A DNA stretch of 31,221 nucleotides from Chrysophaeum taylorii (lineage: Eukaryota > Sar > Pelagophyceae > Pelagomonadales > Pelagomonadaceae): contig JAQMWT010000194.1 in NCBI GenBank assembly GCA_029834535.1, positions 1-31,221 on the forward strand, in the 5' to 3' direction. The notes below the pieces were generated by a model. It had not been told where the DNA came from, did no database searches, and saw only the letters and a program-made list of their open reading frames with translations. The translations under genes were made by a program, and so were the position numbers. Shown here piece by piece: positions 4,607 through 26,720 of the stretch. Position 1 is the first letter of the stretch. Every line of letters starts with the position of its first letter.

Positions 4607-4779
4607 TAATTGCCGTGTCGACGGATCAAGCGTGCCAATCGACCGATCACGCAGTCAACTAGTAACAGCTTCTTGAACATAAAGTCAATCAAGCAAGCCG
4701 GCAGCAAAATAATCGCGGGCCATTGCGCTTCCATAGACGGGTCCGCTTCGAGTCAAGAATCGCGACGAGTGGAGTCCCG

Positions 4780-5057
4780 GCGTAGGTTGGCACCTATTCG
4801 CCTCCCGGGCGGGCCGGTTGGCAGCCGGAACGTTCGCAGTGGGTCGGGGTATGGCCGGGGGGTGAAGACGGAAGGTTATCGACGAGCTGGTTGTCAGTCA
4901 CATCGCGGTCTCCTCGTCGCATGGCGACAAGCTTGATGGTCACTCTCCGCCGACCGACCTTTCGGCGCTCCTCGTCTACAGGCCCGTGATTCCGGACTGG
5001 CTCCTGTCGGTCCGGCCTGGCTCCCATGCTCGGGAGAGGTCTGAAGTTAGTTAGTTT
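4780..5057 (+). mobile_element. SINE-like short interspersed element, copy A
   Basis: 278 bp that recur at 20255-20541 with only about five substitutions outside the tail. It starts GCGTAGGTTGGCACC and ends in a short TTAG-type tail (AAGTTAGTTAGTTT). It is flanked by an 11-bp direct repeat GTGGAGTCCCG at 4769-4779 and 5058-5068, a credible target-site duplication. A simple-repeat 3' tail plus variable-length duplication fits target-primed retroposition by a LINE, as for SINEs. I cannot see convincing pol III A and B boxes. A related GTGAGTGGAGTTCCGG just downstream means the flanking repeat could partly be local tandem sequence. Confidence 0.65.
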
Positions 5058-5068
5058 GTGGAGTCCCG

Positions 5069-5759: not shown

Positions 5760-5764
5760 GGGGC

Positions 5765-6103
5765 TGTGGCGGCAACTCCCGCTTTCTAAGGCTTACCCCT
5801 CTTCTAGCCCCCCCCCCTTATCAGGCGCACCCTACTCCGTTCTGATGATGTCAGTGTTCTCTACGACACCATCTTCCTTTTCCGTGACGTGCGTCACCCT
5901 GATTTCTGTTTTTCGATATATCCTTGATCATAAAGCAACAGCCGATCCTCAAGTTGTGAGGACCAGGCACGGAAGTTGTTTGTGGTCGTGTGGCGGGAGA
6001 ACGGCCATCCTCGTCCAGTGACCCCACCAAGGGCACGGACGCGATCGGCGAGCCAGGATTCGAAGGCACGCCAGGTAGCCCCTAAAATTCTCCTTACGCC
6101 ACA
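5765..6103 (+). repeat. 5' LTR of copy 1
   Basis: 339 bp, TGTGGCG...CGCCACA, with the 7-bp ends forming a perfect inverted repeat. It differs from the 3' LTR (14640-14977) by eight substitutions, all transitions, plus one C in the poly-C run, giving about 2.4 percent divergence. A TATA-like GATATATCC lies near 5917. The minus-strand ORF through the LTR recurs in all three LTRs simply because the LTR does. Confidence 0.93.
5844..5897 (+). promoter_or_regulatory. LTR inverted repeats with bZIP/CRE-like half sites
   Basis: In the 3' LTR (14718-14747) and in copy 2 (21082-21111), GATGATGTCA and TGACATCATC form a perfect 10-bp inverted repeat around a 10-base loop. In this 5' LTR the right arm carries two C-for-T differences. 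GTGACG-TG-CGTCAC follows at 5884-5897. TGATGTCA/TGACATCA and TGACG are half-site variants of bZIP (CRE-like) elements. The position in the LTR would suit a promoter or enhancer, but an RNA hairpin is an equal alternative. Confidence 0.45.
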
Positions 6104-6105
6104 GG

Positions 6106-6127
6106 TGGTGGAGGAACACGAGATTCG
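6106..6127 (+). other. primer-binding site (tRNA 3' end complement), mutated
   Basis: Starts TGG two bases after the LTR, as expected for priming by the CCA end of a tRNA. Copy 2 (21344-21365) preserves the ideal geometry. This copy has AACAC where copy 2 has TAT or similar, and is one base out of register, so priming would be impaired. The tRNA species is not identified. Confidence 0.7.
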
Positions 6128-6154
6128 AGCGACTATATCGGTCGCAGCGAACTA

Positions 6155-6475
6155 GTGCATCTTGCATTCTCTACACGGTCCGGACAAGCCGTGCGCGCCC
6201 AGATCAAGCGCGCCGACAAGGAATTCCAGAAGGACCATTGCCGTGGGAAAGTTCCCCGGCCGGATACGTTAGTCGTCGGAAGTGACGACGCGCGATTCGG
6301 TGCTAACCGACGTGCAACCCGGGTACCGCTGCCGCAGGCGATCGGAGTGAGATCGCAACTCATGGATAAGGCATTGTTTGCCGGGCAGAGACGAGTTCTG
6401 CCGCCCACCGGACTGATAGATTTGTCTGTGGAAGACGCACGCAACGACGATATTACGCGTGTCGTGGACGATTAG
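6155..6475 (+). CDS. leader ORF upstream of gag, ends in conserved TAG
   Basis: An open frame of 106 codons beginning at a GTG (no early ATG; the first in-frame ATG is near 6361), basic in its first half, ending TAG at 6473-6475. It lies in the same frame as gag, and no other stop separates it from the acidic Gag N-terminus. Copy 2 carries the same TAG, but lost one G upstream, so its frame ends early at 21652. It could be the true N-terminus of Gag reached by readthrough, a short upstream ORF, or untranslated leader that happens to be open. No domain recognised. Confidence 0.35.
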   Translation: MHLAFSTRSGQAVRAQIKRADKEFQKDHCRGKVPRPDTLVVGSDDARFGANRRATRVPLPQAIGVRSQLMDKALFAGQRRVLPPTGLIDLSVEDARNDDITRVVDD

Positions 6476-6568
6476 AAGTTCCATAGTCGAAGGAGCACGA
6501 GAACGACGACGACTCAACCATTTTGGACCCGCTCTGATCTCGGCCGACTAGAACGAGCCAGAGTCGAT

Positions 6569-9500
6569 ACGGAAGACGATGATGCTGCCGTCGAGCAGCT
6601 ACGATATGAAGAACCGCCAAGCCGTCAGGATGAGACGAACGAGCGGAATGACGATGATGATAATGATGACAATGAAGAAGAGCACGATACAGAAGTTGAC
6701 GAGGAAGATGAGCTAGACTACAACGACGGCAAGCCCACGGAGAGACCGACGGGAGGACGATCGGCAGCTCCGTCAACGCGTGCAGAACCCCCGGACGCAA
6801 CGAAAATGAATGAGTTCTACGAGGCTCACTTGCGGGCATTACGCGAAGAGAACGAACGCGCGCAAGAACGACTTTTAAATCAAATAGGGGAAGAGAACGA
6901 ACGAAAAGAACGGCTACAACGGAAGGAGAAAGAAGAACTAATAGAGTAACTGCGTCGGGCCAACGACGAACGAAAAGAACTGCTACAACGGAAGGAGAAA
7001 GAAGAATTAAAAGAGCAACTGCGTAGGGCCAACGCTCGAGCAGACGCCTTCCAAGATCAAATAAGCTCGTTGACACGTGAAAGAGACGAGTTGCGTACGC
7101 CGAGTCGATCAAGGCGAGCGAGCAGCACGGAGTCCCGAGCTGAGGCGGAGCCGCCAACTACACGATCACGCGCGAAAGCTAGGAAGCCGCGCTATGAAGA
7201 CGATGATGAAGAAGAAAAGGAGGAGACGCGCGGCGACGGAAGGATCGACACCCAAGAGTTCTTGATGGGGTTTACAGATCGATTCGCCAGCGCGTGAGCT
7301 AAGCACGATCGCAACAAAGAGCGGCGATCAACCTCTGGATTAAAAACCGAAACTTTTAAACTGGTTCTCGATGGACGCGATCAGGACCAGTTCGATATAG
7401 ATGCGGGCGCGATGATGAGTACGTTAGCCGAAGACCATTTCAGCTTGGAGAAACTACGATATCTGCTTCCCGCGACCCTGCGCGACACAGTCACACCGAT
7501 TTTTCGAGAACACTTAAAGAAGTATGAAGACCTGTGTAAAGACCTCGATCACCCAGCGTCTTTCTATTTACGTCGGGATATCGACGATGAGGAGTACGGT
7601 TCCGTGGTACGACGGACACGACGATTGAACGAGAAGTATTGCCTCAAGATTTTGAAATATTTCCGAGAGAGTTGTCCGCTGCCGGTGACGGCAGAGGAAT
7701 CGTTACGAAAGTTACAATGCACGATCCAAGCGACCGTTCCGAAAGGCTCTGGAGAACGCCACGTTCATACATATTGCATTAAATTTCAGCAAGAGGCCAT
7801 GGCGTACTGTTCCGTGGCCAACCGAGATCTCAACGATGTGGAGATCATATCTTACTTGATACGCGGACTGGAGTCCAGCGAATTGAAATCCCTCGTGCGA
7901 ACGATGCGCAGCGGACACCCGACGACGTATAAGACGCTTACGTCTACGTTGTCGCTGATTACACGGCTCGAGAACGACTTCGCAACAGCCATGGCGGAGA
8001 AGAACAGCCAAAACTCAATGAACCCATCGAGCGGGAAGCCGCAGAAGCCACCGTCTGGACGCGGAGGACGGGCTCTCGCCTCGGGAACGAAAGATAAAAC
8101 GACGAAATATGAAGCATTACGCCTCGAAGAGAATCCGAGAAAGTGGTTCGAGAGGACGTGCAAAGACTGTGGGTTTTTCTTAGCGACCCACGACAAGGAT
8201 GAACACGGGAGCCGCGTCATTTGCAACCACGAGCCCGACGACTATTATGTAGCGATGTGCAAATACATCGAAGACGGCAGAAAGCCCATTTCGCGAGGAC
8301 GATGGGAGAGCCGACAAAGGAAAGATAATCACTCGCGTGACGATGGCAGTTCTAATGCCACCCTCGGTTCGAGCGCTGCTCAAGATATTCAGAGCAGACT
8401 CAATGATATGGGCACGCAGCTAACCACGGTTATGGATACCGTGAAGCACTTAACAGATGGACAGGGCCGATCGTCTTCGACACGACCGGGCCGTCGAGAT
8501 AGCCGGAGCCCCCGACGCCGCGACAAGAGCCGTAGCAGCTCGCGCCAGCGCCGACGGAAAGATAGCAGAAGCTCTAGCAGACATTCACGCCGCCGCCGGC
8601 GACGAAGATCTCGCGATCGAAATTCGGACGATGGTCGTTACCGGGAAGACTCGGGACATTCGTCTACAACGTTCGCATTTACGACCCCTTGCGGTCAACA
8701 TTTACCATTAGGAGTGACGGTGTACCCAAACACGGACACCCGCACCGACGACGCAGCCGACGCCCTTGCCGCGGCCGCATTCGAAGATCTTGCTCGCCCA
8801 CCGATGGACGAGCCACCCAACGACGTGCTGACCAATCGTCGGTCTTTAGCACAGATTTATGAGCAGATGTCGAGCGATGAGCTCGAAGATTCGAGCGAGG
8901 AACTCGAAGCTCCACGATACTGGGAAGGCGATTCAGATCTGGAAGATGAAGAAGCTACACTTTGTGAACCAGTGTCCGCGATAGCGTTATTTGACGAGTC
9001 GTCCACGGACGACCCACCGTTTATTTTTGACGAGGAAGCCCTCGATGCCATCTGCTTATCTTTGGACCCTCCAGAGACGACCGTTGGCGACCGAACTGGC
9101 TGTGAGCCAGACATGGATTTCTGCAGTGATAGCTTGTGCGCTCATTCGACTGACGAGACGACGACCAGCGCGAGTAATGCAGACGACGATCTTACGATAG
9201 AGTTGACGTCGGGGACGACGCCATCTTTTCCTGCGGACCCCCCCGAAACGGTTTCGGTTACTACGGATCGAGCCACGGATACGCCGCCGGAAGAAAAGGA
9301 TAGATTTAAGAAGAAGATTAGCAGCGTTCTCAAGTGGGATGAAGACGAGCCGACATGGAACCTGCAGGATTGGTGGACGAGAACTCAGACTTTCTTGCTA
9401 AAGAAGCCACCAGAACAACCGCTCAGCTACGGACTCGAAGCCGCAGCCGACACGGAACCGATCGCCGATGATGGTGAGGATCAACCGGCGACGAATGAAT

Positions 9501-9794
9501 TCACAGATGCATTCTGGAACGACGAAATGAATGATTTATGGGAGGGGTCGTTTGCTTCCAAGAACTACGAAGACCAGGATCCCCTACCAGCGCTGATTCC
9601 CGCTGAGATTGTCTTGGAGGAAGAGCGGAAGCCGCCAGATAAAGAGGCTGACCCGAGCGTTATGGCGAATACGCCAACAACAGATGATACGAAAGCTCAA
9701 GCCGCGGTATCGATGCCCAACCCCGGAGAGGAGCGAGTCAGAGCCCGATGTGCTCACACTTCGTTGACACCGCGAGACGGCAAGACGATCGAAG
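6569..9794 (+). pseudogene. gag: gag of copy 1, broken by nonsense codons
   Basis: Aligned with copy 2, Gag should start at the codon 6569-6571, which is ACG here and ATG in copy 2 (21805). Order of parts: Asp/Glu-rich N-terminus; a coiled coil from about 6806; a capsid-like region from about 7412; a CKDCG...H...C patch near 8160-8225 that may bind zinc; an Arg/Ser-rich stretch at about 8470-8640; then a long acidic C-terminal region. Lesions: TAA at 6947-6949 (CAA in the duplicated unit), TGA at 7295-7297 (TTA in copy 2), and a 69-bp in-frame tandem duplication in the coiled coil (6899-6967, 6968-7036). The part from 7412 on is uninterrupted until the deletion junction at 9791-9794. A Gag role (RNA packaging, capsid) is inferred from position and composition. 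Confidence 0.75.
8464..8640 (+). other. SR-rich domain coding stretch in Gag
   Basis: Codes for dense Arg-Ser dipeptides (SRSPRRRDKSRSSSR and similar), conserved in copy 2 at about 23633-23809. It probably substitutes for or supplements a nucleocapsid in binding RNA. In host proteins such tracts mediate phosphorylation-dependent RNA and splicing-factor contacts. That the element uses it for nuclear retention or splicing control is speculation. Confidence 0.6.
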
Positions 9795-10482
9795 GTCAGA
9801 AGAAGATGAAAAGAAATGCCGCGAGATCACCGAAGCGGATATCCGCCGCCGATATGAAAAGGTTCAATGGCTTCCAATCACTTATCGCAAGGTGGTGATG
9901 CTGTTCAGTGGAGCCGGAGGCAGTACTTTAGGTCTCCAACGAGCCAACGAAATGTGTGGGACGTCGTTTCGAGTCGTGCTAGCCCTCGACGCGTCGGACG
10001 CCGCCAACCAGATACACCACAAGAACTTTCCGAACATTCCTGTGGTGCAGCACACACTGTGTGGTCGCTATGTTACAACCTTACGGTTGATCGAATCTTA
10101 TTTACCCTACGCGGAATGTTCGTCGTCGATGTGTATCGCGTCGCCACCCTGCGTACACTCCGCTCTGTGCAACTTGACCTCCAGAGATGTTGGGAAAGGA
10201 GTCACCGCTACCCACTGGACGATGAAATTATGCAAGATGGCTGGTTTCTTCATGTGGTTGATAGAGCAGGAGGCTTCGATTATTTCTTTCGTTGCACGTT
10301 TGCACCCTTACGTGTACGTCGTCAATTTTTACGACATAACTCCCAGTTTGATGAGCTGTCGCGTGCGATTGTTGGTTTCCAGCCATCCGCTCCATTTGCG
10401 CGCAGTTCCAAAGACTTGCAAGAATATGCAGCAAGAGTTCGCCGCAGCACTTGGCTACGCCGACGAACGACATTTACTTTAG
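9748..10482 (+). CDS. C5-cytosine DNA methyltransferase domain carried by the retrotransposon
   Basis: Transfers a methyl group from S-adenosylmethionine to C5 of cytosine, if active. Motif I is FSGAGGSTLGLQRA at residues 53-66 (SAM binding). ALDASDAANQIHHKNFP is the motif II-III region. SPPC with the catalytic Cys at residue 135 (codon 10150-10152) is motif IV. SCRVRLLVSS around R205-R207 resembles the QxRxRV motif VIII. A WLIEQ peptide may be a degenerate ENV motif VI, so the active-site Glu is uncertain. QEFAAALGYADE resembles motif IX. At 244 residues it is short for the family, with a reduced target-recognition part. The frame ends at TAG (10480-10482), where copy 2 has CAG; beyond it the same frame continues. 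The N-terminal 15 or so codons precede the deletion junction and are not native to the domain. It would be made as part of a polyprotein with protease and RT. Confidence 0.85.
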   Translation: MCSHFVDTARRQDDRRSEEDEKKCREITEADIRRRYEKVQWLPITYRKVVMLFSGAGGSTLGLQRANEMCGTSFRVVLALDASDAANQIHHKNFPNIPVVQHTLCGRYVTTLRLIESYLPYAECSSSMCIASPPCVHSALCNLTSRDVGKGVTATHWTMKLCKMAGFFMWLIEQEASIISFVARLHPYVYVVNFYDITPSLMSCRVRLLVSSHPLHLRAVPKTCKNMQQEFAAALGYADERHLL

Positions 10483-11009
10483 ATGAACAATTTAGGATCA
10501 TCACGAGCCGCGACAGACGCAGCTTACACCGTTGCGCGTGTCCCGCTTCGCGTAGGACCGCACCGTTCCGATTACAGATCTCTGAATCTGAAAATGACTT
10601 CGGAGTTGCTGACTATGCCCCTTGATTTTGATTGGGCCGGCTTCTCCAGGACGACCTCGTTGAAACACTTGGCGTCCGTCGTGCCACCTGACACTATGGC
10701 CTTATTAGTACTCGATCTGCACAACGCTGTGACCAAGGAATTTCACCTGAGCGGCGAAGCTTTGCCGTCGGCGTTGAGTCCTGCAGACCGACCGTTTGAT
10801 TATTATTTGCAAATTGATGAAACCACCCTTCGTCACGTACAAGTTCCGCTGTTAAACACGCGCACACGTGTCGTAAGATGGGTGTCGACTGATGAACTCC
10901 AAGATCACACTAAATGGACACCTCCAGAGGTACCGTTGATTCCGCCTGCAACAGATGAGCCGGGGACGTCTCATGCTTCTTCTGCTGCCCCCCCCCCCGA
11001 CAACCAAAT
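10483..11009 (+). CDS. linker between methyltransferase and reverse transcriptase
   Basis: Continues the methyltransferase frame after the amber codon and stays open to 11115. It starts MNNLG and contains a folded-looking middle part (around 10610-10900) followed by a Pro/Ser/Ala-rich hinge. Part may be the methyltransferase C-terminus (motif X), which is not visible upstream. No other domain recognised. The pol frame takes over at the C11 run (10988-10998). In copy 2 the run is C6, which joins the two frames, so the ancestral polyprotein was probably continuous here. Confidence 0.6.
10988..10998 (+). other. C11 homopolymer causing a frame change
   Basis: Eleven C in copy 1 against six in copy 2 (27897-27902). 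A difference of five shifts the frame between linker and RT. Replication slippage is the simplest cause; programmed or transcriptional slippage on the C run is an untested alternative. Confidence 0.6.
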
Positions 11010-14000
11010 TTGGACGTTCCGCCAGATCCTGAGCAAAATCGGGAAACGAAGATTAAGAGCGAGCCGAGTGTTCGTGTCAAAGGCGAGAGGATCAACAAAA
11101 GCCACCCGGAAGTGAAACTAAAATATGAGAAAAAGTTCGATGTGCCATGGAAAGATGCGCCGCGCGATGCTGAGGGTGCACCGCTGCCGCAAACTCCCGA
11201 GCATGTCAAGGATAACGAAGCAATGAAAGTTAAAATTCCTACGAAGGAAGAAGTTGACAAGGTTGTGCAGGAGCTGGGAATTCCTGACAATCCGCACTTA
11301 GATGACGAGGCGAAACTGATGCTCCGTCACTGTGCGCAATATTCTTGGGCCTTTTTGGACCCGATTATGAGACCTGTGGACTCGCCTCCTGTGTCTCTAC
11401 GATTCAAAGACGCGAATCCGCGACCGATTAAGATGACGCCCTACCGATTGACGCCTGCGAAGCTCGATTGTCTCCGCAAGCAGATCAGCGAGTGGTGCCG
11501 AGATGGAGTCATTCGTCCGGCCAACTCACCCTGGGGCTTTCCTGTGTTGATGCTTCCGAAGAAAGGAGCTGAGATTGGAACGTCCAACGCGTTCCGTGCT
11601 GCAGTTGACTTACGTCAGCTCAACGATCAATTGGTCAATGACAGTTGGCCGAACATTCGACAAGATGATGCTTTAGCTTTTCTCGCCATGAGACGATGGC
11701 GGACATGCATCGATATTAGATGGGGATACCACAACATTCGTTTGGATCCGGCAGCGCAGGACGCTGTCACGATGGTTAGCCCACTTGGCGCTCATAGTTT
11801 CTTGCGATTACCTCTAGGTGTGAAGACGGCCGGAGCTCTTTTCTGCAAGCAAATTGCGAGCGACCTTTCGAAATGGATGTATCAAGACTTGGTTGCGTTT
11901 GTTGACGATATTATGATGGGATCCGACGATCTTCATCGACATTTACAAGTTTTGATCGAAGTGATGTGTCATTTGGCACAGAGAGGGTACAGCGGTCGAA
12001 CCGCGAAGTTCCACCTTCTCAAGGATGATATAGAATTTCTGGGACACATTTCTACCCCAGAAGGCTTGAAGCCGAATCCGAAGACGCTGGAAGCACTGCA
12101 GAAGATGCCGATTCCAGGTACTTTGCCGAATACTTCCCCGAAGACCCAGATACGCTCTTTCATCGGCATGAGTAATTATTGCCGGCGATATGTGAAGGGC
12201 TATTCGAAGATTGTGGAACCGCTAAGACGATTATGCCTCGAAGGTGTAAAGTTCGAGTGGACGCCCGAGTGTCAGAAAGCTTGGGATACGATTATTGAAG
12301 CTTTGGTTGATTCCCGTGGAGTCTACCACCCCGATTATGATCTGCCTTTTCAGATCCGGTCCGATGCTTCCAAGGATGAACTTGGAGCATATCTCTTCCA
12401 GATTGTCGAAGTTAAGGACGATGCCGGAAGAGTGACTCGAGAAGAACGAGTGATTGAATATTGGAGCCGAGCTGTGCCGAAGGAGATGCGGAATTACGAG
12501 CCCCGTCGGCTAGAGCTGCTGGCAGTTATACTTTCTCTAGAGCACTTTCGAGCCTACATCGAAGGGCACCATACTGTTTTGGAGACCGATCACCGAAATT
12601 TGACGTTTTTACGTAAGGCGACGCACTCGTCTGGGCAGCTTGCTCGTTGGGCGATGCGCCTCGCCAATTTTGACCCTGAACTTGGTTACAAGCCGGTAAA
12701 GTCACCGGGAATGAGTATCCCTGACTGTCTCTCCCGCAACCCGATAGATCATGTCATCGAGACTGACGAATTTGGAGAACCTTTGAACCACGCGTATTTA
12801 GTGTTCCAAGAGTTTCCCCGACCTGTTGATGACCGAGGAGTTCCCGTCTCCGGCTGCCACTTCATGATGTCGTTTATTACGACCGAACTGCCGGAAGACG
12901 AGGAAAAAGATCCTGAAATGGATCCGACGAAATTGGCTACGTCTCACGCTACGAGACAACGTCGGAAGAACCGTGCGCGCGATGAGCCACAGATCTTCAA
13001 GGACGCAGCCGCATACAAAGATTATATCGATAAGATACCCGATAATATGACGCTCGCTGAGATCGCACGTGAGCAAGAATCTGATGCTACTTGCGAGGAT
13101 ATTCGCTACCTAATGGCCCACGGTCAGACGCCGCGACGTTCCCGAGCGAACGAACGATTCGAAGTCGTTAAAGACGTTCTTTACCGCATTTCTACTGATT
13201 TGCACCCGATGATTGTTGCACCTGCTACGTTGCGCAAGCGCATTATTCGACTCTACCATGACACTCCGGTTAACGGTGGTCATATGGGACGTCACAGTAC
13301 TGTCCAGGCTATCCAAGAACGATTTTGGTGGCCTCACATGTCGAACGAAGTTGGAGTCTTCATTTCTGAATGTTTAGTTTGCCAGAAAGCTCGTACGCCT
13401 GAGCCGAAACGAGCTGGACTCTTGCAGCAGCCCGTCTACGATGGTGATGGTGCTGTTCTCTGCATGGATTTATTTGGACCCTTGCCCAGCGCTGGTCCCG
13501 AGACGTATCTTCTAGTATTTTTTGATCCGTTCTCGCATTTCTTGATTCTGGGTGTTTTAAACGATAAGACTGCTGAGTCTGTCCTCGAGTCTTTTGTCAT
13601 TAACATCCTCCTCAAGGGCTACTTGCCCCAGATGATTCGTACCGACAACGGTAAGGAGTTCGTGAGCAAGTTGATGCGCGAGTTTTGCCATCTCTTTAAC
13701 AGACGATACCAAACTACGATTCCTTATCATGCCCAGTCGAATCCGGCTGAGCGTGTCAACCGATTTATCAAGGCCTTCCTCCGTGCTTGCCTTCAGGGCC
13801 GGAACATTGCGGATTGGCCTGACTTTGCTCATTATATTGCGTTTTGCCACAACCGCAAGTTTATTCCAGGCACGCAGATTTCTCCCTTTATGCTGCGCCT
13901 GAACCGTCAGCCGATGCTACCGACTGACTACACGCTTATAGATTTCGATACACGATTATTGCCGAAGACTCGCTCTGATGCAGTTGCCGAAACTCGTGAA

Positions 14001-14504
14001 CGATTGAAATATTATACAAAGATCGTCCGCGAGGCTCGTGATAAAGCTTTGAAGAAACAGCGATTGGCTTACAATGCTGATCATGTTGATGTTGAATACA
14101 AGGAAGGATCGCACGTTTTGCTCTACATTCCTTTCCTTCAGAACAAACTTCGACCGGAATGGCGAGGGCCGTTTATTATCAAGGAACGCCTTTCCCCGGT
14201 CACCTATAGGATTGAGTCTCTCGACTCTCCGCCCGAAGAACGACGTGTTCATGTTAGTCAGATCACGCCTGTGATGGTACCTCCGATCGTTGATCAAGCC
14301 ATCCGCAAACCCGAAGAAACCTTCCGTGATGATTATCAGCACGGTAAGTTTGTTGTTTTCCGGATTCCTGACCGGAAGCGCTCTGATTGGCGCAAGAAGA
14401 TTTATATTGCTGAAGTTTACGAGCTTTGCGATTACCAAAATGATCGTGTTGCTCTACATTTCTATTCTGATTTGGGTCCGAACGATGATGTCGCTTATTT
14501 CTAG
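11010..14504 (+). CDS. pol: pol: reverse transcriptase - RNase H - integrase
   Basis: Copies element RNA into DNA and integrates it. Open for 1164 codons from a TTG at 11010; it is expected as a polyprotein continuation, so this is not a true start. RT: D235 in DIRWGYH (motif A) and FVDD with D299-D300 (motif C). RNase H: D452 (SDASKDELG), E502 (RRLELLAV) and D527 (ETDHRNL). Integrase zinc finger: H750, H758, C788, C791. Integrase core: D820 (CMDLFGPL), D879 (RTDNGKEF) and E914 (NPAERVNRF), with 34 residues between the last two. A GPF-type module (EWRGPFIIKE) follows near residue 1050, with no chromodomain. The order RT-RH-INT is that of Ty3/gypsy. All catalytic residues are present, so this domain set could be active although upstream parts of copy 1 are broken. 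Ends with TAG 135 bp before the 3' LTR. Confidence 0.93.
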   Translation: MDVPPDPEQNRETKIKSEPSVRVKGERINKSHPEVKLKYEKKFDVPWKDAPRDAEGAPLPQTPEHVKDNEAMKVKIPTKEEVDKVVQELGIPDNPHLDDEAKLMLRHCAQYSWAFLDPIMRPVDSPPVSLRFKDANPRPIKMTPYRLTPAKLDCLRKQISEWCRDGVIRPANSPWGFPVLMLPKKGAEIGTSNAFRAAVDLRQLNDQLVNDSWPNIRQDDALAFLAMRRWRTCIDIRWGYHNIRLDPAAQDAVTMVSPLGAHSFLRLPLGVKTAGALFCKQIASDLSKWMYQDLVAFVDDIMMGSDDLHRHLQVLIEVMCHLAQRGYSGRTAKFHLLKDDIEFLGHISTPEGLKPNPKTLEALQKMPIPGTLPNTSPKTQIRSFIGMSNYCRRYVKGYSKIVEPLRRLCLEGVKFEWTPECQKAWDTIIEALVDSRGVYHPDYDLPFQIRSDASKDELGAYLFQIVEVKDDAGRVTREERVIEYWSRAVPKEMRNYEPRRLELLAVILSLEHFRAYIEGHHTVLETDHRNLTFLRKATHSSGQLARWAMRLANFDPELGYKPVKSPGMSIPDCLSRNPIDHVIETDEFGEPLNHAYLVFQEFPRPVDDRGVPVSGCHFMMSFITTELPEDEEKDPEMDPTKLATSHATRQRRKNRARDEPQIFKDAAAYKDYIDKIPDNMTLAEIAREQESDATCEDIRYLMAHGQTPRRSRANERFEVVKDVLYRISTDLHPMIVAPATLRKRIIRLYHDTPVNGGHMGRHSTVQAIQERFWWPHMSNEVGVFISECLVCQKARTPEPKRAGLLQQPVYDGDGAVLCMDLFGPLPSAGPETYLLVFFDPFSHFLILGVLNDKTAESVLESFVINILLKGYLPQMIRTDNGKEFVSKLMREFCHLFNRRYQTTIPYHAQSNPAERVNRFIKAFLRACLQGRNIADWPDFAHYIAFCHNRKFIPGTQISPFMLRLNRQPMLPTDYTLIDFDTRLLPKTRSDAVAETRERLKYYTKIVREARDKALKKQRLAYNADHVDVEYKEGSHVLLYIPFLQNKLRPEWRGPFIIKERLSPVTYRIESLDSPPEERRVHVSQITPVMVPPIVDQAIRKPEETFRDDYQHGKFVVFRIPDRKRSDWRKKIYIAEVYELCDYQNDRVALHFYSDLGPNDDVAYF

Positions 14505-14639
14505 CCGACCTCTCACCTTTCGCACCGCAAGCTCAAGCCCGAGTTCAGAAGATTCGTTCACGAGATGCTCGTAAGGCGAAGCCGCGCTCCTCGCGCTAGC
14601 ACCTCGCTGGGGCAGCTCGAATTCTTACCAGGGGAGTCC
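14505..14639 (+). other. 3' untranslated stretch with short polypurine tract
   Basis: 135 bp between pol and the 3' LTR. AGGGGAG at 14630-14636, three bases before the LTR, is the best candidate for the polypurine tract that primes plus-strand DNA synthesis. It is short, so the exact primer is uncertain. Confidence 0.5.
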
Positions 14640-14977
14640 TGTGGCGGCAACTCCCGCTTCCTAAGGCTTACTCCTCTTCTAGCCCCCCCCCTTATCAGGC
14701 GCACCCTACTCCGTTCTGATGATGTCAGTGTTCTCTATGACATCATCTTCCTTTTCCGTGACGTGCGTCACCCTGATTTCTGTTCTTCGATATATCCTTG
14801 ATCATAAAGCAACAGCCGATCCTCAAGTTGTGAGGACCAGGCACGGAGGTTGTTTGTGGTCGTGTGGCGGGAGAACGGCCATCCTCGTCCAGTGACCCCA
14901 CTAAGGGTACGGACGCGATCGGCGAGCCAGGATTCGAAGGCACGCCAGGTAGCCCCTAAAATTCTCCTTACGCCACA
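14640..14977 (+). repeat. 3' LTR of copy 1
   Basis: 338 bp, TGTGGCG...CGCCACA. Retains the perfect 10-bp inverted repeat at 14718-14747 and GTGACG-TG-CGTCAC at 14758-14771. See the 5' LTR for the all-transition differences. Confidence 0.93.
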
Positions 14978-16021
14978 GGGACCAATGAGTCGCCGAGTTA
15001 GCTCCACATGCAGGGGCTAGTTTCGCGAAGCTCTCAAGTTGGCTTGAACTTCGCTCATGTAACGCGTGATGGAATGGTTGTTCACACTACCCGTGGCACT
15101 TTTCAGCCCGAAGGACATGATCACCATCCGAGCCTTCTTGCCGCCCAGGCCAGGCGCCCGCCGCGCCTTCTGATAGCGCTTCTCACAAGCTTCTACTACC
15201 ATTGGAACTTTGGCAAGGCCGTGGACAATGGAGATCTGTCGGCAATGTATCGTGGCTGGTACGACAACTGGTTCGTTGAGGAGGTTAAGGAGATGGCAGC
15301 GTTCTGGTAGACGACTCGGCTCATCCCTTCCTTTGTCTCGTCGAGGGATGTCTACATTCTACATACTCCGCTGGCATGTCGCCGACGAAACTCACGACGA
15401 TGGTGATGGCAATGACGTTGGTCCATCCGAGGACGGCGAGCTGTGGCGCGCGATTCTGCCTCTGCCACTTATTTTATGACCTCGAACAGTGCGAACGCCC
15501 TTGACTCGCTTGACTTCCCTGCTTTCGCCGAGTTGTGGAAGGCCCACGTCGCAGGCCTCGAGCCTTCGAAGACTTCTCTTTCTGACTCTTCTGAAAGACG
15601 GCTAGTATCCAACGGCAGTATCACAAGGAGCACCTGCGTTTGTTCATTATCACCGAAACATCGTTTTGTCAGCGCCGGACGCGACGTCGACGACCCGTGA
15701 TGAAAACGTACTCCTCCGCGCACATCTCCGCGAGCCGTGGTGCGCTGAGGCGACGCCTTCCGTGAACCGACGGGGCAATTGTCTCTCATTTGGAAACAGG
15801 TCGCCCTAGTGTCAGCGTCCAACGCACCCGCTTTCAGTCTCGACGACCCAGTTCAAGCGCCTTCGACCCCAACTGCTGCGGGCACCAGGCTCCTCCCGCA
15901 GATGGCTCAAGTCCTCATTCAAGACCCTCAAGTCATCAACGCACCACTTATCGACACAACCCTCGAGGCTAGACTAACCCGATGCTCACCACAGTTCTCC
16001 TTTCTGCTCGACGCTCGGACT
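14978..16021. other. no recognisable gene; scattered ORFs of 60-118 codons
   Basis: Plus-strand ORFs at 15008-15310, 15443-15700 and 15779-16075 and minus ORFs at 15017-15202 and 15469-15822 overlap one another. Parts of 15008-15310 (ending in a Trp/Tyr-rich stretch) read like protein, but competing frames on both strands look no worse. It may be a decayed gene or old element split by frameshifts. I cannot name a family. Confidence 0.3.
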
Positions 16022-16995: not shown

Positions 16996-18129
16996 TTAGA
17001 AGCACTTACGGTGGACAATAGCCGGGCCAGACTCATCGTATTCGGCTTTGGAGATCCACATAGATTGGAATGTGGAGAGCGACGATAGGATCGACCCGCC
17101 GATCCAAACTGAGTACTTACGCTCAGGAGGCGCAACAACCTTAATCTTCATCGTCGAAGGCGCAAGCGCCGTGAGTTCCTTCGTCATGCGCTCACCAATG
17201 CCCGGGTACATGGTGGTACCGCCCGAGAGTACGATGTTCGAGTAAAGATCCTTGCGGATGTCGACGTCGCACTTCATGATGGTCTGGAACGTGCAGTCGT
17301 GGACGCCCGAGGCTTCCTTCCCGATAAACGAGGGCTGGAAGAGCACTTCAGGGCAGCGGAATCGCTCGTTGCCGATGACGATGACGTTGCCGTCGGGAAG
17401 CTCGTAAGACTTTTCAAGAGCCGACGATTCAGCCGCGGTCTTCATCTCCTGGTCGAAATCGAGCGCAACGTAAGTGAGCTTCTCCTTGATGTCACGGACA
17501 ATCTCGCGCTCGGCGGTGGTCGTGAACGAGTAACCACGCTCCGTGAGGATCTTCATCATGTAATCAGTGAGGTCACGGCCCGCGAGATCGAGGCGCACAA
17601 TAGCGTGGGGTAGCGCGTAACCTTCGTAAATAGGAACCGTGTGCGAGACACCGTCACCAGAGTCGAGCACGCAGCCCGTCGTACGGCCCGAGGCATACAG
17701 CGAGAGCACGGCCTGGATATTCACGTACATCGCCGGGACGTTGAAGGTCTCGAACATGATCTGAGTCATGCGCTCGCGGTTCGCCTTGGGGTTAAGGGGG
17801 GCTTCCGTAAGGAGCACGGGGTGCTCCTCAGGCGCGACGCGGAGCTCGTTGTAGAAAGTGTGGTGCCAGATCTTCTCCATATCATCCCAGTTCGTGACAA
17901 TACCGTGCTCGATCGGGTACTTGAGGGTCAAAACGCCGCGCTTGGACTGGGCTTCGTCGCCGACGTAGGCGTCCTTCTGGTCCATGCCGACCATGATGCC
18001 GGGGTGCTTAGGGCGGCCGACGATCGAAGGGAACACGGCGCGCGGGGCGTCGTCGCCGGCGAAGCCAGCCTTGCACATGCCCGAGCCGTTGTCGACCACA
18101 AGCGCCTGGACATCCTCATCGTCAGCCAT
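16996..18129 (-). CDS. actin, complete and intronless
   Basis: Actin is the ATP-binding filament-forming protein of the cytoskeleton. The frame is 377 codons, the normal length, with no intron. It begins [17 protein letters not shown] with the phosphate-binding loop at residues about 13-20. It has the D-loop region [17 protein letters not shown], the second phosphate loop [11 protein letters not shown], the adenosine-site SGGTTMYPG and the C-terminus HRKCF. The start context on the minus strand is GGACCATGG, a strong Kozak match. Overall similarity, from memory, is highest to stramenopile actins, although actin is too conserved to place the lineage firmly. It is the only securely identified host gene here. 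Transposon-derived repeats begin about 245 bp upstream of its ATG. Confidence 0.98.
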
Positions 18130-18371: not shown

Positions 18372-18721
18372 GACAAGTGCAACCCAGTAAGTTCACCTAG
18401 TCCCAATCTCTAACCCCATAAGTTCACCTGGTCCCAGTAAGTTCACCTGGTCAGTAAGTTCACCTAGTCCCAATCTCTTACCCCAGTAAGTTCGGCGTAA
18501 ACCGACTCGTGCTCACATCCACTCACCCCACTCTCTTTTGAGCTCGTCGCTCTCACCCCCGCCAATCTAAGCTGCTTTGATCCGCACACGCCGCCAACCT
18601 TTGAGTTTACTCTAAAAACCCCAGTAAGCTCACTTGGTCCCAGTAAGTTCACGTGGTCACTAAGGTCACCTAGTCCCAATCTCGAACCCCAGTAAGTTCA
18701 CCTGGTCTCAGCAAGTTCACC
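18372..18721 (-). repeat. inverted copy of the AGGTGAACTTACTGGG minisatellite blocks
   Basis: CCCAGTAAGTTCACCTGGTC units in two blocks (about 18372-18495 and 18620-18721), separated by a segment with CGCCAATCTAAGCTGCTTTG and a GAGTTTACTC half-palindrome. It is the reverse complement of 2206-2530 in content and order, adjoining the helicase remnant as there. Confidence 0.8.
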
Positions 18722-19307
18722 TACAGTGCGCGTGTAGACGCCGGGAGGGGGCTTATCGGTATTGCGCAGCACGTGTGGGGTAGGGTAGAGTCGTCGACCC
18801 AGAAGAGGATATCCTCAGGGTTGCCAATCGACAGGAAGCCACGTAGAGCTGGACGTGGCAGAAGACGGGCTTGGGCAAGAGGACGCCGACCTTGCGGGGC
18901 GTCTGCCCCTGGCTCTTGTTTATCGTTTGGCGTCGGTGGGGCTTAAGGGACACTGGTTGGAGGAGCCTCGGTGACACGACACCATAGATGATGTATCTGG
19001 CGCCGTTGCAGTGGCCGTACGACGGGTCGAGGTTGCGAAGACTTTAAGCTCGAGATCAAAGTCAGCATGCCGTTGGTTGTCAGGGAGTTGAAAACTCGAC
19101 TGTAAAAAGCGAGTCGTCGTCTTCCGACCCAACCTAGTCGGCCAAAAAGAACTCCGACGCCTCGTCTCCGGGAAAGGCCGCGGTTATGCACGCGTCGTCA
19201 GCATCGACAACATCGTTTCGACGGGGCGTGAGAAGGGCGCGCTGAAAGAGCCGCCGCGGGTCGTGGAAATAGTCTGCGAGGTCGCCGTAGACAGCTTGGA
19301 GGATCAA
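18722..19307 (-). pseudogene. decayed Pif1/Helitron-type helicase fragment, minus copy
   Basis: Inverted copy of 1616-2205. Minus-strand peptides in order: LILQAVYGDLADYFHDP; RALLTPRRNDVVDADDA; FPGDEASEFFLAD; DFDLELKV; a CNGAR peptide; TINKSQGQT; KVGVLLPKPVFCHVQLYVA. These follow the conserved order of the Pif1-like helicase C-terminal half in Helitron proteins. Here the GQT of TINKSQGQT is intact (the plus copy has RQT). Both copies lack the residues between RRQ and TINKSQ, so that deletion predates their separation. Frames change at least twice. The minus ORF 19134-19655 extends the fragment upstream without further recognisable helicase motifs. Confidence 0.82.
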
Positions 19308-19511
19308 TGTCGGTAAACCGCTTCCTAGCTCGCCCCTTCGTGGAGAGCGACGGCGGACCGCCGCGCGGCCCGGGATGGCGACACAAACCGTCCGGCGCTC
19401 GGCGAGCGGGAGATCGTGCGGGAAAACGAAAGAGGCGCAAGTTCCTTTGAAAAGGAACTGGTACTCGAGTGGGCGAAGAGAAAGTGTACAAGCGCGCTGT
19501 TGATGCGTTGA

Positions 19512-20103: not shown

Positions 20104-20560
20104 AAGCAAGGACGCACATTCTCATCAGAGGCGAAGGTAGGAAGAAGGGAGCAAGGCAAGATTCCTTGTACACTTACCCTGATCGCCGACTGCGGTTGCG
20201 ATGGAGGACGGTGCCTCATTAATCCTGAGCCTTGCGAGGGCATCCGCCCTCCCGGCGTAGGTTGGCACCTATTCGCCTCCCGGGCGGGCCGGTTGGCAGC
20301 CGGAACGTTCGCAGTGGGACGGGGTATGGCCGGGGGGCGAATACGGAAGGTTATCGACGAGTTGGTTGTCAGTCACATCGCGGTCTCCTCGTCGCATGGC
20401 GACAAGCTTGATGGTCACTCTCCGCCGACCGACCTTTCGGCGCTCCTCGTCTACAGGCCCGTGATTCCGGGCTGGCTCCTGTCGGTCCGGCCTGGCTCCC
20501 ATGCTCGGGAGAGGTCTGAAGTTAGTTAGTTAGTTAGTTAGAGAATGTGCGTCCTTGCTT
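20104..20560. repeat. segment bounded by a perfect 20-bp inverted repeat
   Basis: AAGCAAGGACGCACATTCTC at 20104-20123 is the exact reverse complement of 20541-20560. The segment contains 130 bp of unassigned sequence and then SINE-like copy B. No flanking target duplication is evident. It may be a small TIR element that received the SINE-like insertion, or a foldback. Confidence 0.6.
20255..20541 (+). mobile_element. SINE-like short interspersed element, copy B
   Basis: Second copy of the 4780-5057 element, about 98 percent identical over the body, with a longer (GTTA)n tail at about 20519-20541. The tail difference between copies (two versus five or so units) is typical of retroposed elements with simple-repeat 3' ends. 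A flanking duplication like that of copy A is not seen here. A minus-strand 77-codon ORF is open in both copies, but near-identity makes that uninformative. Confidence 0.65.
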
Positions 20561-20820: not shown

Positions 20821-21003
20821 CTCGCAAGAAGGAGTGACGCAAGGAGCTCAAAGAGGGCAAGGGGAGAGAAGAATAAAGAGTACCCGTGGGCTTGGTGATG
20901 AAAATAAATATTTAAATAAGTAAAGAAAATAAATAAAATAGACACGAGGAGACGACGATAAGCGACGGTTGCAGCATGATGCCAGACCTCCCAAACAGGC
21001 CTC
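20821..21003. other. AT-rich intergenic stretch, no gene
   Basis: About 180 bp, including a run of AAATAAATA-type sequence at about 20895-20945 that stands out from the GC-rich surroundings. It ends at the 5' LTR of copy 2. Confidence 0.5.
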
Positions 21004-21341
21004 TGTGGCGGCAACTCCCGCCCCCTAAGGCTTACCCCTCTTCTAGCCGCCCCGCTTATCAGGGGCACCCTACTCCGTTCTGATGATGTCAGTGTTCTCT
21101 ATGACATCATCTTCCTTTTCCGCGACATGCGTCACCCTGATTTCTGTGTTTCGATATATCCTTGATCATAAAGCAACAGCCGATCCTCAAGTTGTGAGGA
21201 CCAGGCACGGAAGTTGTTTGTGGTTGTGTGGCGGGAGAACGGCCATCCTCGTCCAGTGACTCCACCAAGGGCACGGACGCGAGCGGCGAGCCAGGATTCG
21301 AAGGCACGCCAGGTAGCCCCTAAAATTCTCCTTACGCCACA
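21004..21341 (+). repeat. 5' LTR of copy 2
   Basis: 338 bp, TGTGGCG...CGCCACA. The perfect 10-bp inverted repeat (21082-21111) is intact. The GTGACG palindrome is changed to GCGACATGCGTCAC, and the poly-C run is interrupted by G. It has diverged from both copy-1 LTRs, so it derives from a separate insertion event. Confidence 0.92.
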
Positions 21342-21343
21342 GG

Positions 21344-21804: not shown

Positions 21805-24800
21805 ATGGAAGACGATGATGCTGCCGTCGAGCAGCTACGATATGAAGAACCGCCAAGCCGTCAGGATGAGACGAGCGAGCGGAATGACGATGATGATAAT
21901 GACGACGATGAAGAAGAGCACGACACAGAAGTTGACGACGAGGAAGAAGAGCTAGACTACAACGAGGCAAGCCCACGGAGAGACCGACGGGAGGACGATC
22001 GACAGCTCCGTCAGCGCGTGCAGAACCCCCGGACGCAACGAAAATGAATGAGTTCTACGAGGCTCACTTGCGGGCATTACGCGAAGAGAACGAACGCGCG
22101 CAAGAACGACTTTTAAATCAAATAGGGGAAGAGAACGAACGAAAAGAACGGCTACAACGGAAGGAGAAAGAAGAATTAAAAGAGCAACTGCGTAGGGCCA
22201 ACGCTCGAGCAGACGCCTTCCAAGATCAAATAAGCTCGTTGACACGTGAAAGAGACGAGTTGCGTACGCCGAGTCGATCAAGGCGAGCGAGCAGCACGGA
22301 GTCCCGAGCTGAGGCGGAGCCGCCAACTACACGATCACACGCGAAAGCTAGGAAGCCGCGCTATGAAGACGATGATGAAGAAGAAAAGGAGGAGACGCGC
22401 GGCGACGGAAGGATCGACACCCAAGAGTTCTTGATGGGGTTTACAGATCGATTCGCCAGCGCGTTAGCTAAACACGATCGCAACAAAGAGCGGCGATCAA
22501 CCTCTGGATTAAAAACCGAAACTTTTAAACTGGTTCTCGATGGACGCGATCAGGACCAGTTCGATATAGATGCGGGCGCGATGATGAGTACGTTAGCCGA
22601 AGACCATTTCAGCTTGGAGAAACTACGATATCTGCTTCCCGCGACCCTGCGCGACACAGTCACACCGATTTTTCGAGAACACTTAAAGAAGTATGAAGAC
22701 CTGTGTAAAGACCTCGATCACCCAGCGTCTTTCTATTTACGTCGGGATATCGACGATGAGGAGTACGGTTCCGTGGTACGACGGACACGACGATTGAACG
22801 AGAAGTATTGCCTCAAGATTTTGAAATATTTCCGAGAGAGTTGTCCGCTGCCGGTGACGGCAGAGGAATCGTTACGAAAGTTACAATGCACGATCCACGC
22901 GACCGTTCCGAAAGGCTCTGGAGAACGCCACGTTCATACATATTGCATTAAATTTCAGCAAGAGGCCATGGCGTACTGTTCCGTGGCCAACCGAGATCTC
23001 AACGATGTGGAGATCATATCTTACTTGATACGCGGACTGGAGTCCAGCGAATTGAAATCCCTCGTGCGAACGATGCGCAGCGGACACCCGACGACGTATA
23101 AGACGCTTACGTCTACGTTGTCGCTGATTACACGGCTCGAGAACGACTTCGCAACAGCCATGGCGGAGAAGAACAGCCAAAACTCAATGAACCCATCGAG
23201 CGGGAAGCCGCAGAAGCCACCGTCTGGACGCGGAGGACGGGCTCTCGCCTCGGGAACGAAAGATAAAACGACGAAATATGAAGCATTACGCCTCGAAGAG
23301 AATCCGGAAAAGTGGTTCGAGAGGACATGCAAGGATTGTGGGTTTTTCTTAACGACCCACGACAAGGATGAACACGGGAACCGAGTCATCTGCAACCGCG
23401 AGCCCGACGACTATTATGTAGCGATGTGCAAATACATCGAAGACGGCAGAAAGCCCATTTCGCGAGGACGATGGGAGAGCCGACAAAGGAAAGATAGTCA
23501 TTCGCGTGACGACTGCAGTTCTAATGCCACCCTCGGTTCGAGCGCTGCTCAAGATATTCAGAGCAGACTCCATGATATGGGCACGCAGCTGACCACGGTT
23601 ATGGATTCCGTGAAGCACTTAACAGATGGACACGGCCGATCGTCTTCGACACGACCGGGCCGTCGAGATAGCCGGAGCCCCCGACGCCGCGACAAGAGCC
23701 GTAGCAGCTCGCGCCAGCGCCGACGGAAAGATAGCAGAAGCTCTAGCAGACATTCACGCCGCCGCCGGCGACGAAGATCTCGCGATCGAAATTCGGACGA
23801 TGGTCGTTACCGGGAAGACTCGGGACATTCGTCTGCAACGTTCGCGTTTACGACCCCTTGCGGTCAACAGTTACCATTAGGAGTGATGGTGTACCCGAAC
23901 ACGACACTCGCACCGACGACGCAGCCGACGCCCTTGCCGCGGCCGCATTCGAAGATCTTGCTCGCCCACCGATGGACGAGCCACCCAACGACGTGCTGAC
24001 CAATCGTCGGTCTTTGGCACAGATTTATGAGCAGATGTCGAGCGATGAGCTCGAAGATTCGAGCGAGGAACTCGAAGCTCCACGATACTGGGAAGGCGAT
24101 TCAGATCTGGAAGATGAAGAAGCTACACTTTGTGAACCAGTGTCCGCGATAACGTTATTTGACGAGTCGTCCACGGACGACCCGCCGTTTATTTTTGACG
24201 AGGAAGCCCTCGATGCCATCTGCTTATCTTTGGACCCTCCAGAGACGACCGTTGGCGACCGAACTGGCTGTGAGCCAGACATGGGTTTCTGCAGTGATAG
24301 CTTGTGCGCTCATTCGACTGACGAGACGACGACCAGCGCGAGTAATGCAGACGACGATCTTACGATAGAGTTGACGTCGGGGACGACGCCATCTTTTCCT
24401 GCGGACCCCCCCGAAACGGTTTCGGTTACTACGGATCGAGCCACGGATACGCCGCCGGAAGAAAAGGATAGATTTAAGAAGAAGATTAGCAGCGTTCTCA
24501 AGTGGGACGAAGACGAGCCGACGTGGAACCTGCAGGATTGGTGGACGAGAACTCAAAACTTCTTGCTAAAGAAGCCACCAGAACAGCCGCTCAGCTACGT
24601 ACTCGAAGCTGCAGCCAACACGGAACCGATCGCCGATGATGGTGAAGATCAACCGGCGACGAATGAATTCACAGGTGCATTCTGGAACGACGAAATGAAT
24701 GATTTATGGGAGGGGTCGTTTGCTTCCAAGAACTACGAAGACCAGGATCCCCTACCAGCGTTGGTTACTACGGATCGAGCCACGGATACGCCGCCGGAAG

Positions 24801-25663
24801 AAAAGGATAGATTTAAGAAGACTAGCAGCGTTCTCAAGTGGGACGAAGACGAGCCGACGTGGAACCTGCAGGATTGGTGGACGAGAACTCAAAACTTCTT
24901 GCTAGAGAAGCCACCAGAACAACCGCTCAGCTACGTACTCGAAGCTGCAGCCAACACGAAACCGATCGCCGATGATGGTGAAGATCAACCGGCGACGAAT
25001 GAATTCACAGATGCATTCTGGAACGACGAAATGAATGATTTATGGGAGGGGTCGTTTGCTTCCAAGAACTACGAAGACCAGGATCCCCTACCAGCGTTGG
25101 TTACTACGGATCGAGCCACGGATACGCCGCCGGAAGAAAAGGATAGATTTAAGAAGAAGACTAGCAGCGTTCTCAAGTGGGACGAAGACGAGCCGACGTG
25201 GAACCTGCAGGATTGGTGGACGAGAACTCAAAACTTCTTGCTAGAGAAGCCACCAGAACAACCGCTCAGCTACGTACTCGAAGCTGCAGCCAACACGGAA
25301 CCGATCGCCGATGATGATGAAGATCAACCGGCGACGAATGAATTCACAGATGCATTCTGGAACGACGAAATGAATGATTTATGGGAGGGGTCGTTTGCTT
25401 CCAAGAACTACGAAGACCAGGATCCCCTACCAGCGTTTATTCCCTCCGAGATTGTCTTGGAGGAAGAGCGGAAGCCGCCAGATAAAGAGGCTGACGCGAG
25501 CGTTATGGCGATGACGCCAACAACAGATGATACGAAAGCTCAAGCCGCGGTATCGATGCCCAACCCCGGAGATGAGCGAGTAAGAGCCCGATGTGCTCAC
25601 ACTTCGTTGACACCGCGAGACGGCAAGACGATCGAAGATGATTTGGTTACCTCAGTTGTTTAG
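21805..25663 (+). pseudogene. gag: gag of copy 2, two frameshifts and a triplicated segment
   Basis: Starts ATG at 21805 with an Asp/Glu-rich N-terminus. A one-base loss near 21966 shifts frame. The main ORF 22044-23999 (651 codons) holds the coiled coil (about residues 12-75), the capsid-like region (about 180-390), a CKDCG...H...C patch near residue 430 and the SR stretch near 530-590. Another one-base loss near 23896 (ACACGACAC against ACACGGACAC in copy 1) moves the acidic C-terminus to the frame 23858-25663. That part contains three tandem copies of a 112-113-residue unit, where copy 1 has one. The TAG at 25661-25663 is the natural-looking Gag end, with protease in the -1 frame beyond it. 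Confidence 0.75.
24425..25437 (+). repeat. three tandem 336-339-bp units in gag
   Basis: Units begin GTTACTACGGATCGAGCC at 24425, 24764 and 25100. The second lacks one AAG codon, so it is 336 bp. Each unit encodes an acidic, Trp-rich segment (KWDEDEPTWNLQDWW, FWNDEMNDLWEG). The frame is kept throughout. Copy 1 has a single unit (from about 9257). Near-identity of the units suggests a recent expansion. Confidence 0.92.
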
Positions 25664-26001
25664 ATACGGGTACTCTTACGTTTATAGCCTGTCACATCTA
25701 CAGGAATCGTGACGGACCGAAATTCTCGACGACCATCGGTGTCGATGGAATGGCAGATGTTTCTTATATTTGCCGAGAAATGGTCACAAAGTTGGCCAAA
25801 GATCAGTTGATTTTCGATGAAGGCGAACTTCCGATTAAGCGCAAGCTGTACGGATCAGGGTTGAATACGACGACGATCTATCGTTGGATCGCCATTCGGG
25901 TCGCCCTCGCCGACGACATCGCTGCCCCCATTGTCGCTATTGTAGCCGATACGAACTATCTGTTCCTGTCGGGAGGGAACGAGTCGATGCACCCTTCGTG
26001 A
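25664..26001 (+). pseudogene. retropepsin-like aspartic protease domain, atypical active site
   Basis: Cleaves the polyprotein, if active. In the -1 frame relative to gag, the peptide FIACHIYRNRDG is followed by TIGVDGMADVSYI and later APIVAIVADTNYLFLSG. This order fits the strand, active-site turn and C-terminal strand of a retropepsin (xxDTGAxxSxI ... hydrophobic strand with a Gly). The catalytic Asp would be codon 25744-25746, but the usual D-T-G is D-G-M. The frame stops at 25999-26001, and the next domain continues in another frame, so one base is missing or extra near 25995. An in-frame DTG at 25663-25671 precedes the first strand and is probably coincidental. The segment is absent from copy 1. 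Confidence 0.5.
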
Positions 26002-26720
26002 CCTTTCGATCTATTTACGATCGAGATCCGATAGCCGTACCGATTTACAATCATCAACACGATGCCTTTCGGAAGAGTCTCGACCTGGTCAAGACTCGAG
26101 TTTACGCTCGTTTGAGCACGATTAAAGATCTCCGAAACCCGCCGCCGGAACGTACGGTAGCCTTGGCTACGCGAGGACATGCTACGACCAAATTCTCCCC
26201 AGCTCCGGGAGAAGCCGCGCAGGAAGTAGTTGCTTACGCTGCGCGCACGCTTCAAATCGAGCCCGGTCGAACTTACAATCTACCGGTAATTTTGTCGAAG
26301 CCTATGGAAATGGGACAGGTTTTCGTCGCTACGTTTGCTGAGAACGAGCAGTTGGGAGTTGTCGAAGGAATGTGCTCTTCTTGCAAAGAGCACGACCGGT
26401 CCGCTGCTCGGGTGGCGGTTACTGCCACGGAAGAAGTGCCGACGGTCGTCACTCAAGGCGAAGTCCTTGCGATTGGCGGTATCGTTAGGTACGAAGACGA
26501 GTTGAACGTCTCTACGATCAACGAACTTACGAAAAAATGTGAAGAAGGATACGACAAGGGGAACCTTTCTTTCACGGTTTCTGTCGCTAGTCACTTGACG
26601 CTATGCGACGAATCTCCCCCGCCGATGCTGCTGAGCACGGTGCAGAAGGACGCTACGACCGCTATGGCGGACAAGTCCACCCTCAAACGACCTGAAGGCA
26701 GCGACGATTTCGCTAGAAGG
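26002..26720 (+). CDS. post-protease beta-rich domain and linker
   Basis: Same open frame as the methyltransferase (25884-27548). The part about 26250-26480 has alternating hydrophobic strands and the peptides IEPGRTYNLPVIL and VPTVVTQGEVLAIG. These resemble the beta-domain that follows protease in many gypsy elements (pattern: proline-rich start, V-V-N-x-x-x-x-P-V, G-x-x-L-A). A Cys pair (MCSSCKEH) lies in the middle. It ends in a charged linker leading to the methyltransferase. Deleted in copy 1. Confidence 0.45.

Follow-up and report, generated by a model that had tools for sequence, protein, structure and literature searches.

The window analyzed here, a stretch of 31,221 bases (positions 1 to 31,221 of contig JAQMWT010000194.1) from the 70.8-Mb, 697-contig assembly GCA_029834535.1 of the pelagophyte Chrysophaeum taylorii, contains two copies of one long terminal repeat (LTR) retrotransposon of the Ty3/gypsy superfamily, which carries a C5-cytosine methyltransferase (C5-MTase, MTase) domain. 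Copy 1 spans positions 5764 to 14979, with all of its parts on the forward strand. Its 5' LTR (5764 to 6105, 342 bases) and 3' LTR (14639 to 14979, 341 bases) are 97.4% identical, differing by eight substitutions and one gap. Between them are found a gag-like open reading frame (ORF) at 7412 to 9898, the MTase ORF at 9748 to 10482, and a pol ORF at 11010 to 14504, whose Pfam matches follow the gypsy order of reverse transcriptase (RT; RVT_1, E = 1.1e-12), RNase H (RT_RNaseH, 1.2e-25) and integrase (Integrase_H2C2, 2.1e-18; rve, 4.6e-12). The place of the MTase ORF in copy 1 is between protease and RT. A sequence-only reading had proposed a C5-MTase inside a Ty3/gypsy polyprotein, in the expected strand and order, and this arrangement holds for both window copies and for many others.

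The motifs FSGAGG, SPPC and R-V-R are present in the MTase ORF as had been described. Motif I (FSGAGG, for S-adenosylmethionine [SAM] binding) is at 9904 to 9921, motif IV (SPPC, with the catalytic Cys) at 10141 to 10152, motif VI (WLIEQE, strand E169-173 of the structural model) at 10255 to 10272, with the Glu at 10264 to 10266 replacing that of ENV, and motif VIII (R-V-R) at 10360 to 10368. Motifs IX (10591 to 10620) and X (10660 to 10692) follow in order and in the same frame, within a segment past the stop codon (10483 to 10692) that aligns with relatives, so that the series is split by a stop in copy 1. Consequently, the interval 9748 to 10482 does hold motifs I to VIII but represents a partial domain, from which motifs IX and X are missing and whose first 15 or so residues lie outside it. 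The ORF start is not that of the domain because copy 1 has a deletion join at about 9791. About 1.08 kb present in copy 2 between gag and MTase is absent from copy 1, the two copies matching at 9256-9794/25099-25637 and again at 9791-14450/26716-31196.

Conservation of the motifs was assessed in 36 gypsy places, drawn mostly from the top of the score list. The catalytic Cys, the motif VI Glu and both Arg of motif VIII were kept in all 36, and the second Pro of motif IV was missing in one. These residues and the G-x-G-G of motif I were also invariant across the seven rows of alignments A3 and A4, from which the related polyprotein P0001 was excluded. The spacing of 38 residues between the Cys and the motif VI Glu is presumably that of M.HhaI. 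Profile evidence was weaker: PF00145, with a curated cut-off of 22 bits, matched the ORFs of copies 1 and 2 at E = 5.1e-4 (20.0 bits) and E = 3.2e-4 (20.7 bits), below the cut-off, and two gypsy copies elsewhere in the genome at E = 1.7e-5 and 8.2e-6 (24.9 and 25.9 bits), above it. The alignment to this hidden Markov model (HMM) spans only model positions 2 to 52 of 324. The anticipated fold was recovered. Among the 50 Foldseek matches listed for the model of the window ORF (predicted local distance difference test, pLDDT, of 71), all were C5-MTases, with human DNMT2 as the best (3e-8), and a whole-domain model was nearest to DNMT1 and bacterial DNA MTases, by small differences; the structure predictions were built on seven sequences. 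Judged by the ordered motifs I to X, the predicted fold and the retained Cys, Glu and Arg-x-Arg, the gypsy domain is a complete C5-MTase.

Copy 2, also on the forward strand, starts at 21003 and ends at the contig end. It has a 5' LTR (21003 to 21343) with 95.6% identity to 5764-6105, a gag-like ORF (22044 to 23999) for which the Pfam scan gave no match, and an ORF (25884 to 27548) that combines the protease-side linker with motifs I to VIII (26829 to 27296); motifs IX and X (27523 to 27615) are in a different frame. Both window copies are decayed, and copy 2 is cut by the contig end. Since they are broken, functional statements rest on copies elsewhere in the genome. The gag-like ORF of copy 1 was recognized by its position and an Arg/Ser-rich stretch only; it gave no Pfam match at E ≤ 0.01 and crosses the deletion join into the wrong frame. 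In the gag-pol junction region of copy 2, three tandem units of about 339 bases (24424 to 25437) are found, and copy 1 has one. No perfect target-site duplication was seen by eye in the printed flanks of copy 1. A DUF4964 match on 10483-11115 (E = 4.9e-4, below its cut-off; 0.019 in another copy) was rejected as spurious, as it spans the MTase C terminus and linker.

A protein search of the genome found at least 150 gypsy MTase places, all at E ≤ 4e-130 (the 150 scored of 964 candidates), so that copy counts are lower bounds; 125 of these 150 have no internal stop. Identity to the window ORF is 89 to 97% or 81 to 84% in most rows, with few between, which separates subfamilies A and B. Ten places (up to ten kilobases each) were fetched, picked for long open frames or for belonging to subfamily B. 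Two of the ten, L006 and L007, show single open frames of 3026 and 3005 residues in which motifs of MTase, RT and integrase occur; L015 has one frame of 2393 residues with those of MTase and RT. In these copies the MTase is part of the polyprotein. Read by eye, the stretch of about 1.08 kb absent from copy 1 carries a protease-like part and a linker in stop-free copies. The median difference between nearest neighbors is 0.9% for 28 copies of subfamily A, and two copies of subfamily B show 6 mismatches in 1297 columns; such small differences point to recent spread.

The ratio of nonsynonymous to synonymous substitutions (dN/dS), calculated by the Nei-Gojobori method with our own script, had a median of 0.094 at dS 1.46 for the gypsy MTase (160 between-subfamily pairs, 28 copies). 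This set comprised stop-free copies with a longest match of at least 360 residues, frameshifted or stopped copies (including window copy 2) being dropped, and such picking pushes dN/dS down. Among 10 longer copies, the values were 0.056 for MTase, 0.028 for RT and 0.144 for the protease-linker (24 A-B pairs each), and 0.031 for RNase H and 0.062 for integrase (20 pairs each); no pairs came from the interval assigned to gag. Because dS is near saturation (1.3 to 2.8), the ranking counts above the values. Thus, purifying selection has acted on the gypsy MTase, at a strength close to that seen for integrase.

The age of this association was explored through related proteins. When the MTase domain alone (450 residues) was compared with the protein database, none of 5436 candidates reached E ≤ 0.001, under length limits that hide polyproteins, so the polyprotein was used as query instead. 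Its residues 1340 to 2500 retrieved 21 proteins, seven of which (P0001 to P0007) have the gypsy MTase ahead of RT. One of these, P0001, is an MMETSP transcript, and so a relative is transcribed. P0012 and P0016 bear other C5-MTases at other polyprotein positions, by which they are probably separate captures, and the remaining 12 had no MTase at E < 1 by the family HMM, although some may be incomplete. No well-supported conflict appears between the MTase tree and the RT tree, and both split the window element and P0001 to P0004 from P0005 to P0007 with full support. The MTase tree has very long branches (4.24 for P0001), with two of its six inner branches well supported and its finer parts weak; the RT tree needs two changes for MTase presence because P0012, with its other MTase, falls among the open branches. 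The same domain ahead of RT in seven relatives, together with the non-conflicting trees, looks like an old acquisition in the gypsy lineage that was carried along with RT, contrary to the suggestion of a new acquisition in this exact position. As for a viral or bacterial source, queries A1, a piece of P0004 and A2 gave 31, 5 and 110 pattern matches in viral_contigs, and A1 gave 58 in genome_contigs; none was confirmed, in searches able to detect only close relatives.

A PF00145 scan of the genome returned 57 matches, among which no gypsy MTase copy was listed. Fifty-five come from a single Ty1/copia family (49 by overlap with its places and six by an identity of 80 to 94% to it), which has 131 MTase matches in the genome. 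In the copia ORF L024:3597-9452 (1952 residues), RVT_2 (1.6e-38) and PF00145 (1.1e-7) are in the same frame, together with rve at 0.0061, below its cut-off. The copia MTase is placed before the integrase, has the motifs LPCQ and VENV, and retains its Cys, Glu and Arg in all 15 places compared. Its dN/dS of 0.106 (the 14 most diverged pairs, 11 copies) shows that it is under purifying selection. At E ≤ 1 its profile matched three PDB sequences (E = 0.012 to 0.016), each of them a cytosine-specific methyltransferase, and the metagenomic copia polyprotein P0022 contains a related domain in the same position with 25% identity. Between the gypsy and copia MTase profiles there was no detectable similarity (hhalign probability 0.5%), and a common origin of the two found no support, although with profiles this shallow (Neff 1.2 to 1.3) a deep one may have gone unseen. 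Ratios of observed to expected CpG (CpG o/e), flanks included, were 1.01 to 1.04 in copia loci L024, L025 and L026 and 1.20 to 1.28 in gypsy loci L006, L007, L011 and L012; TG and CA were about 1.1 in the copia loci, which hints at a slight loss of CG confined to copia.

Besides retroelements, the same scan contained a DNMT2-like gene (L016, 360 residues, 4.1e-19) and a DNMT5-like gene (L030, one frame of 2086 residues, PF00145 9.1e-17 with SNF2-rel_dom, PF00176, 3.3e-13), and no DNMT1, DNMT3 or DNMT6. This absence is provisional because PF00145 misses divergent and intron-split genes, as it missed the gypsy family. Around the elements in the window, an intron-free actin gene of 377 residues (16996 to 18129, reverse strand; PF00022, 7e-146) lies between the two copies. 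An inverted repeat of about 0.94 kb (1611-2528 and 18372-19311, 85% identical) flanks copy 1 and the actin gene, and a 285-base repeat (4775-5059 and 20250-20534, 98% identical) is found upstream of each copy, outside the LTRs.

Taken together, the lineage is organized as gag, protease, C5-MTase, RT, RNase H and integrase, and we consider it probable, with reservations, that its MTase methylates the element's own cDNA. The protease of the element would free the MTase, which, inside Pol and beside RT, would be packaged with RT and the genome RNA. It could then methylate cytosines in freshly made double-stranded cDNA of the element, either ahead of integration or during it. The host DNMT5-like enzyme would keep the mark, which might damp or disguise new copies and so spare the host. 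As with every functional step, this self-methylation is what we infer from sequence. A maintenance role in CG methylation, acting from hemimethylated DNA, has been ascribed to DNMT5 (PMC7862722), and in Cryptococcus methylation has been kept long after loss of the de novo enzyme (PMC13297926).

Several observations weigh against methylation of its own cDNA by the element. In all aligned members except P0005, motif VI reads E-Q instead of E-N-V; the PP of motif IV is missing from some relatives (SVDC, TPDC), and no clear motif I is left in P0001. In 50 gypsy copies from three alignments, private C-to-T changes were not raised at CG (29 of 9,694 CG sites versus 62 of 21,895 other C sites, p = 0.82), and CpG o/e in gypsy copies (1.20 to 1.34) resembled that of host loci (1.13 to 1.42), without CG depletion. 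Furthermore, elements of other gypsy clades transpose without an MTase. The degenerate motifs and the missing CpG decay would suit a fold retained for binding (of nucleic acid, or in SAM sensing) or for polyprotein structure without methylation. We regard this as unlikely, as a binder has no need of a catalytic Cys, and the Cys, Glu and both Arg are invariant in every gypsy place and alignment row compared. The lack of CpG decay would follow equally if the mark were set in another context, if exposure were slight or if repair were good.

This lack also fits an enzyme acting, DNMT2-like, on RNA such as the element's genomic RNA or tRNA primer, a reading toward which the best Foldseek match of the window model, human DNMT2, points as well. 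RNA methylation has been raised by de Mendoza et al. for a LINE type inactive on DNA in yeast (PMC5890265). We find an RNA substrate somewhat less credible than a non-methylating fold, since the whole-domain model lies, if by small differences, closer to DNA MTases. An enzyme that worked in trans, on the DNA of the host instead of the element's cDNA, and so shaped target chromatin or the expression of host genes, would accord with the high copy number and with the presence of MTases in both LTR families of the genome; the position inside Pol beside RT points rather to the particle, and host loci are not CG-poor, making this very doubtful. Finally, given the weak Pfam score of the window ORF, the finding might be a fortuitous likeness or a host gene around which an element has inserted, a misreading that we regard as already refuted and give practically no credence. 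Methylation of its own cDNA by the element thus remains our preferred account.

MTase-bearing retrotransposons are a known kind, and the precedent that the sequence-only reading invoked is sound. De Mendoza et al. (2018) found that a gypsy element of Klebsormidium carries a Dnmt3 and that LINE and DIRS elements of Symbiodinium carry MTases; they described purifying selection and congruent trees, and the DIRS type methylated CG de novo (PMC5890265). KnitGypsy-Dnmt3 of Klebsormidium nitens is likewise a Ty3/gypsy element with a C5-MTase in Pol, kept catalytic residues and a Ka/Ks below 0.2 (PMC5890265). Its MTase is of the Dnmt3 class, whereas the gypsy MTase here is unplaced, its profile finding no DNMT3 in PDB at E ≤ 1; its host has a plant-like DNMT set, in contrast to the DNMT2- and DNMT5-like genes found here besides retroelements. 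SymbioDIRS-Dnmt3 and SymbioLINE-Dnmt share retrotransposon C5-MTases, purifying selection and alike MTase and RT trees, reach hundreds of copies, and reside in a host with Dnmt5 and Dnmt2, comparable to the -like genes here (PMC5890265). However, they are LINE and DIRS elements, whereas the present one is an LTR element with a DDE integrase, and the LINE type is CG-depleted, which was not found for the gypsy copies. In the brown alga Ectocarpus, Sola1-1_Ec32 also carries its own DNA MTase, but it is a DNA transposon; the enzyme is an N4-cytosine or N6-adenine MTase that includes a ParB-like domain and is encoded on the other strand from the transposase (PMC12477816).

Closer to the present element, the metagenomic gypsy polyproteins P0012 and P0016 also contain PF00145, although their MTases are canonical and placed elsewhere: at residues 2256 to 2552, between RNase H and integrase, in P0012 (1e-29), and toward the N terminus by motif reading in P0016, which also has an exonuclease (PF01612) and a chromodomain (PF00385). 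The copia family and P0022 likewise have a C5-MTase as part of the polyprotein of an LTR retrotransposon, with purifying selection in the former as in gypsy, but they belong to the RVT_2 superfamily, with the MTase before the integrase and with PCQ and ENV. A 2019 opinion notes, without detail, that gypsy and DIRS elements from several groups, stramenopiles included, carry adenine and cytosine MTases (PMC6338049). A 2025 paper places DNMT3s within "LTR Copia and DIRS" elements and cites for this the 2018 work, which itself says Gypsy (PMC12344493); MTases in copia may therefore count as already mentioned, and precedent for copia is thus allowed. Within the open-licence literature searched, the apparent novelty lies in the divergent E-Q lineage: where it sits (ahead of RT), how far it has spread, and that it shares a genome with a copia family bearing its own MTase, DNMT5- and DNMT2-like genes being the only others found there.

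These results emphasize that Ty3/gypsy and Ty1/copia elements in one genome each keep a C5-MTase under purifying selection. Since the gypsy MTase is too divergent for the PF00145 genome scan, such elements are probably undercounted in protist genomes. DNA methylation is a chief host weapon against transposons, and these elements may help write the marks that cells use for silencing them. With DNMT2- and DNMT5-like genes as the only others found, whether transposons can supply de novo methylation to a maintenance-only host becomes a testable question. In its strongest form, retrotransposons of two LTR superfamilies would be the sole de novo cytosine methylators in the genome, the host supplying DNMT5-type maintenance only, a proposal that we hold to be improbable. 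If it were true, retrotransposons would write the host methylome de novo, with new copies arriving marked and the host copying the mark, and the usual order, in which hosts mark transposons, would be reversed.
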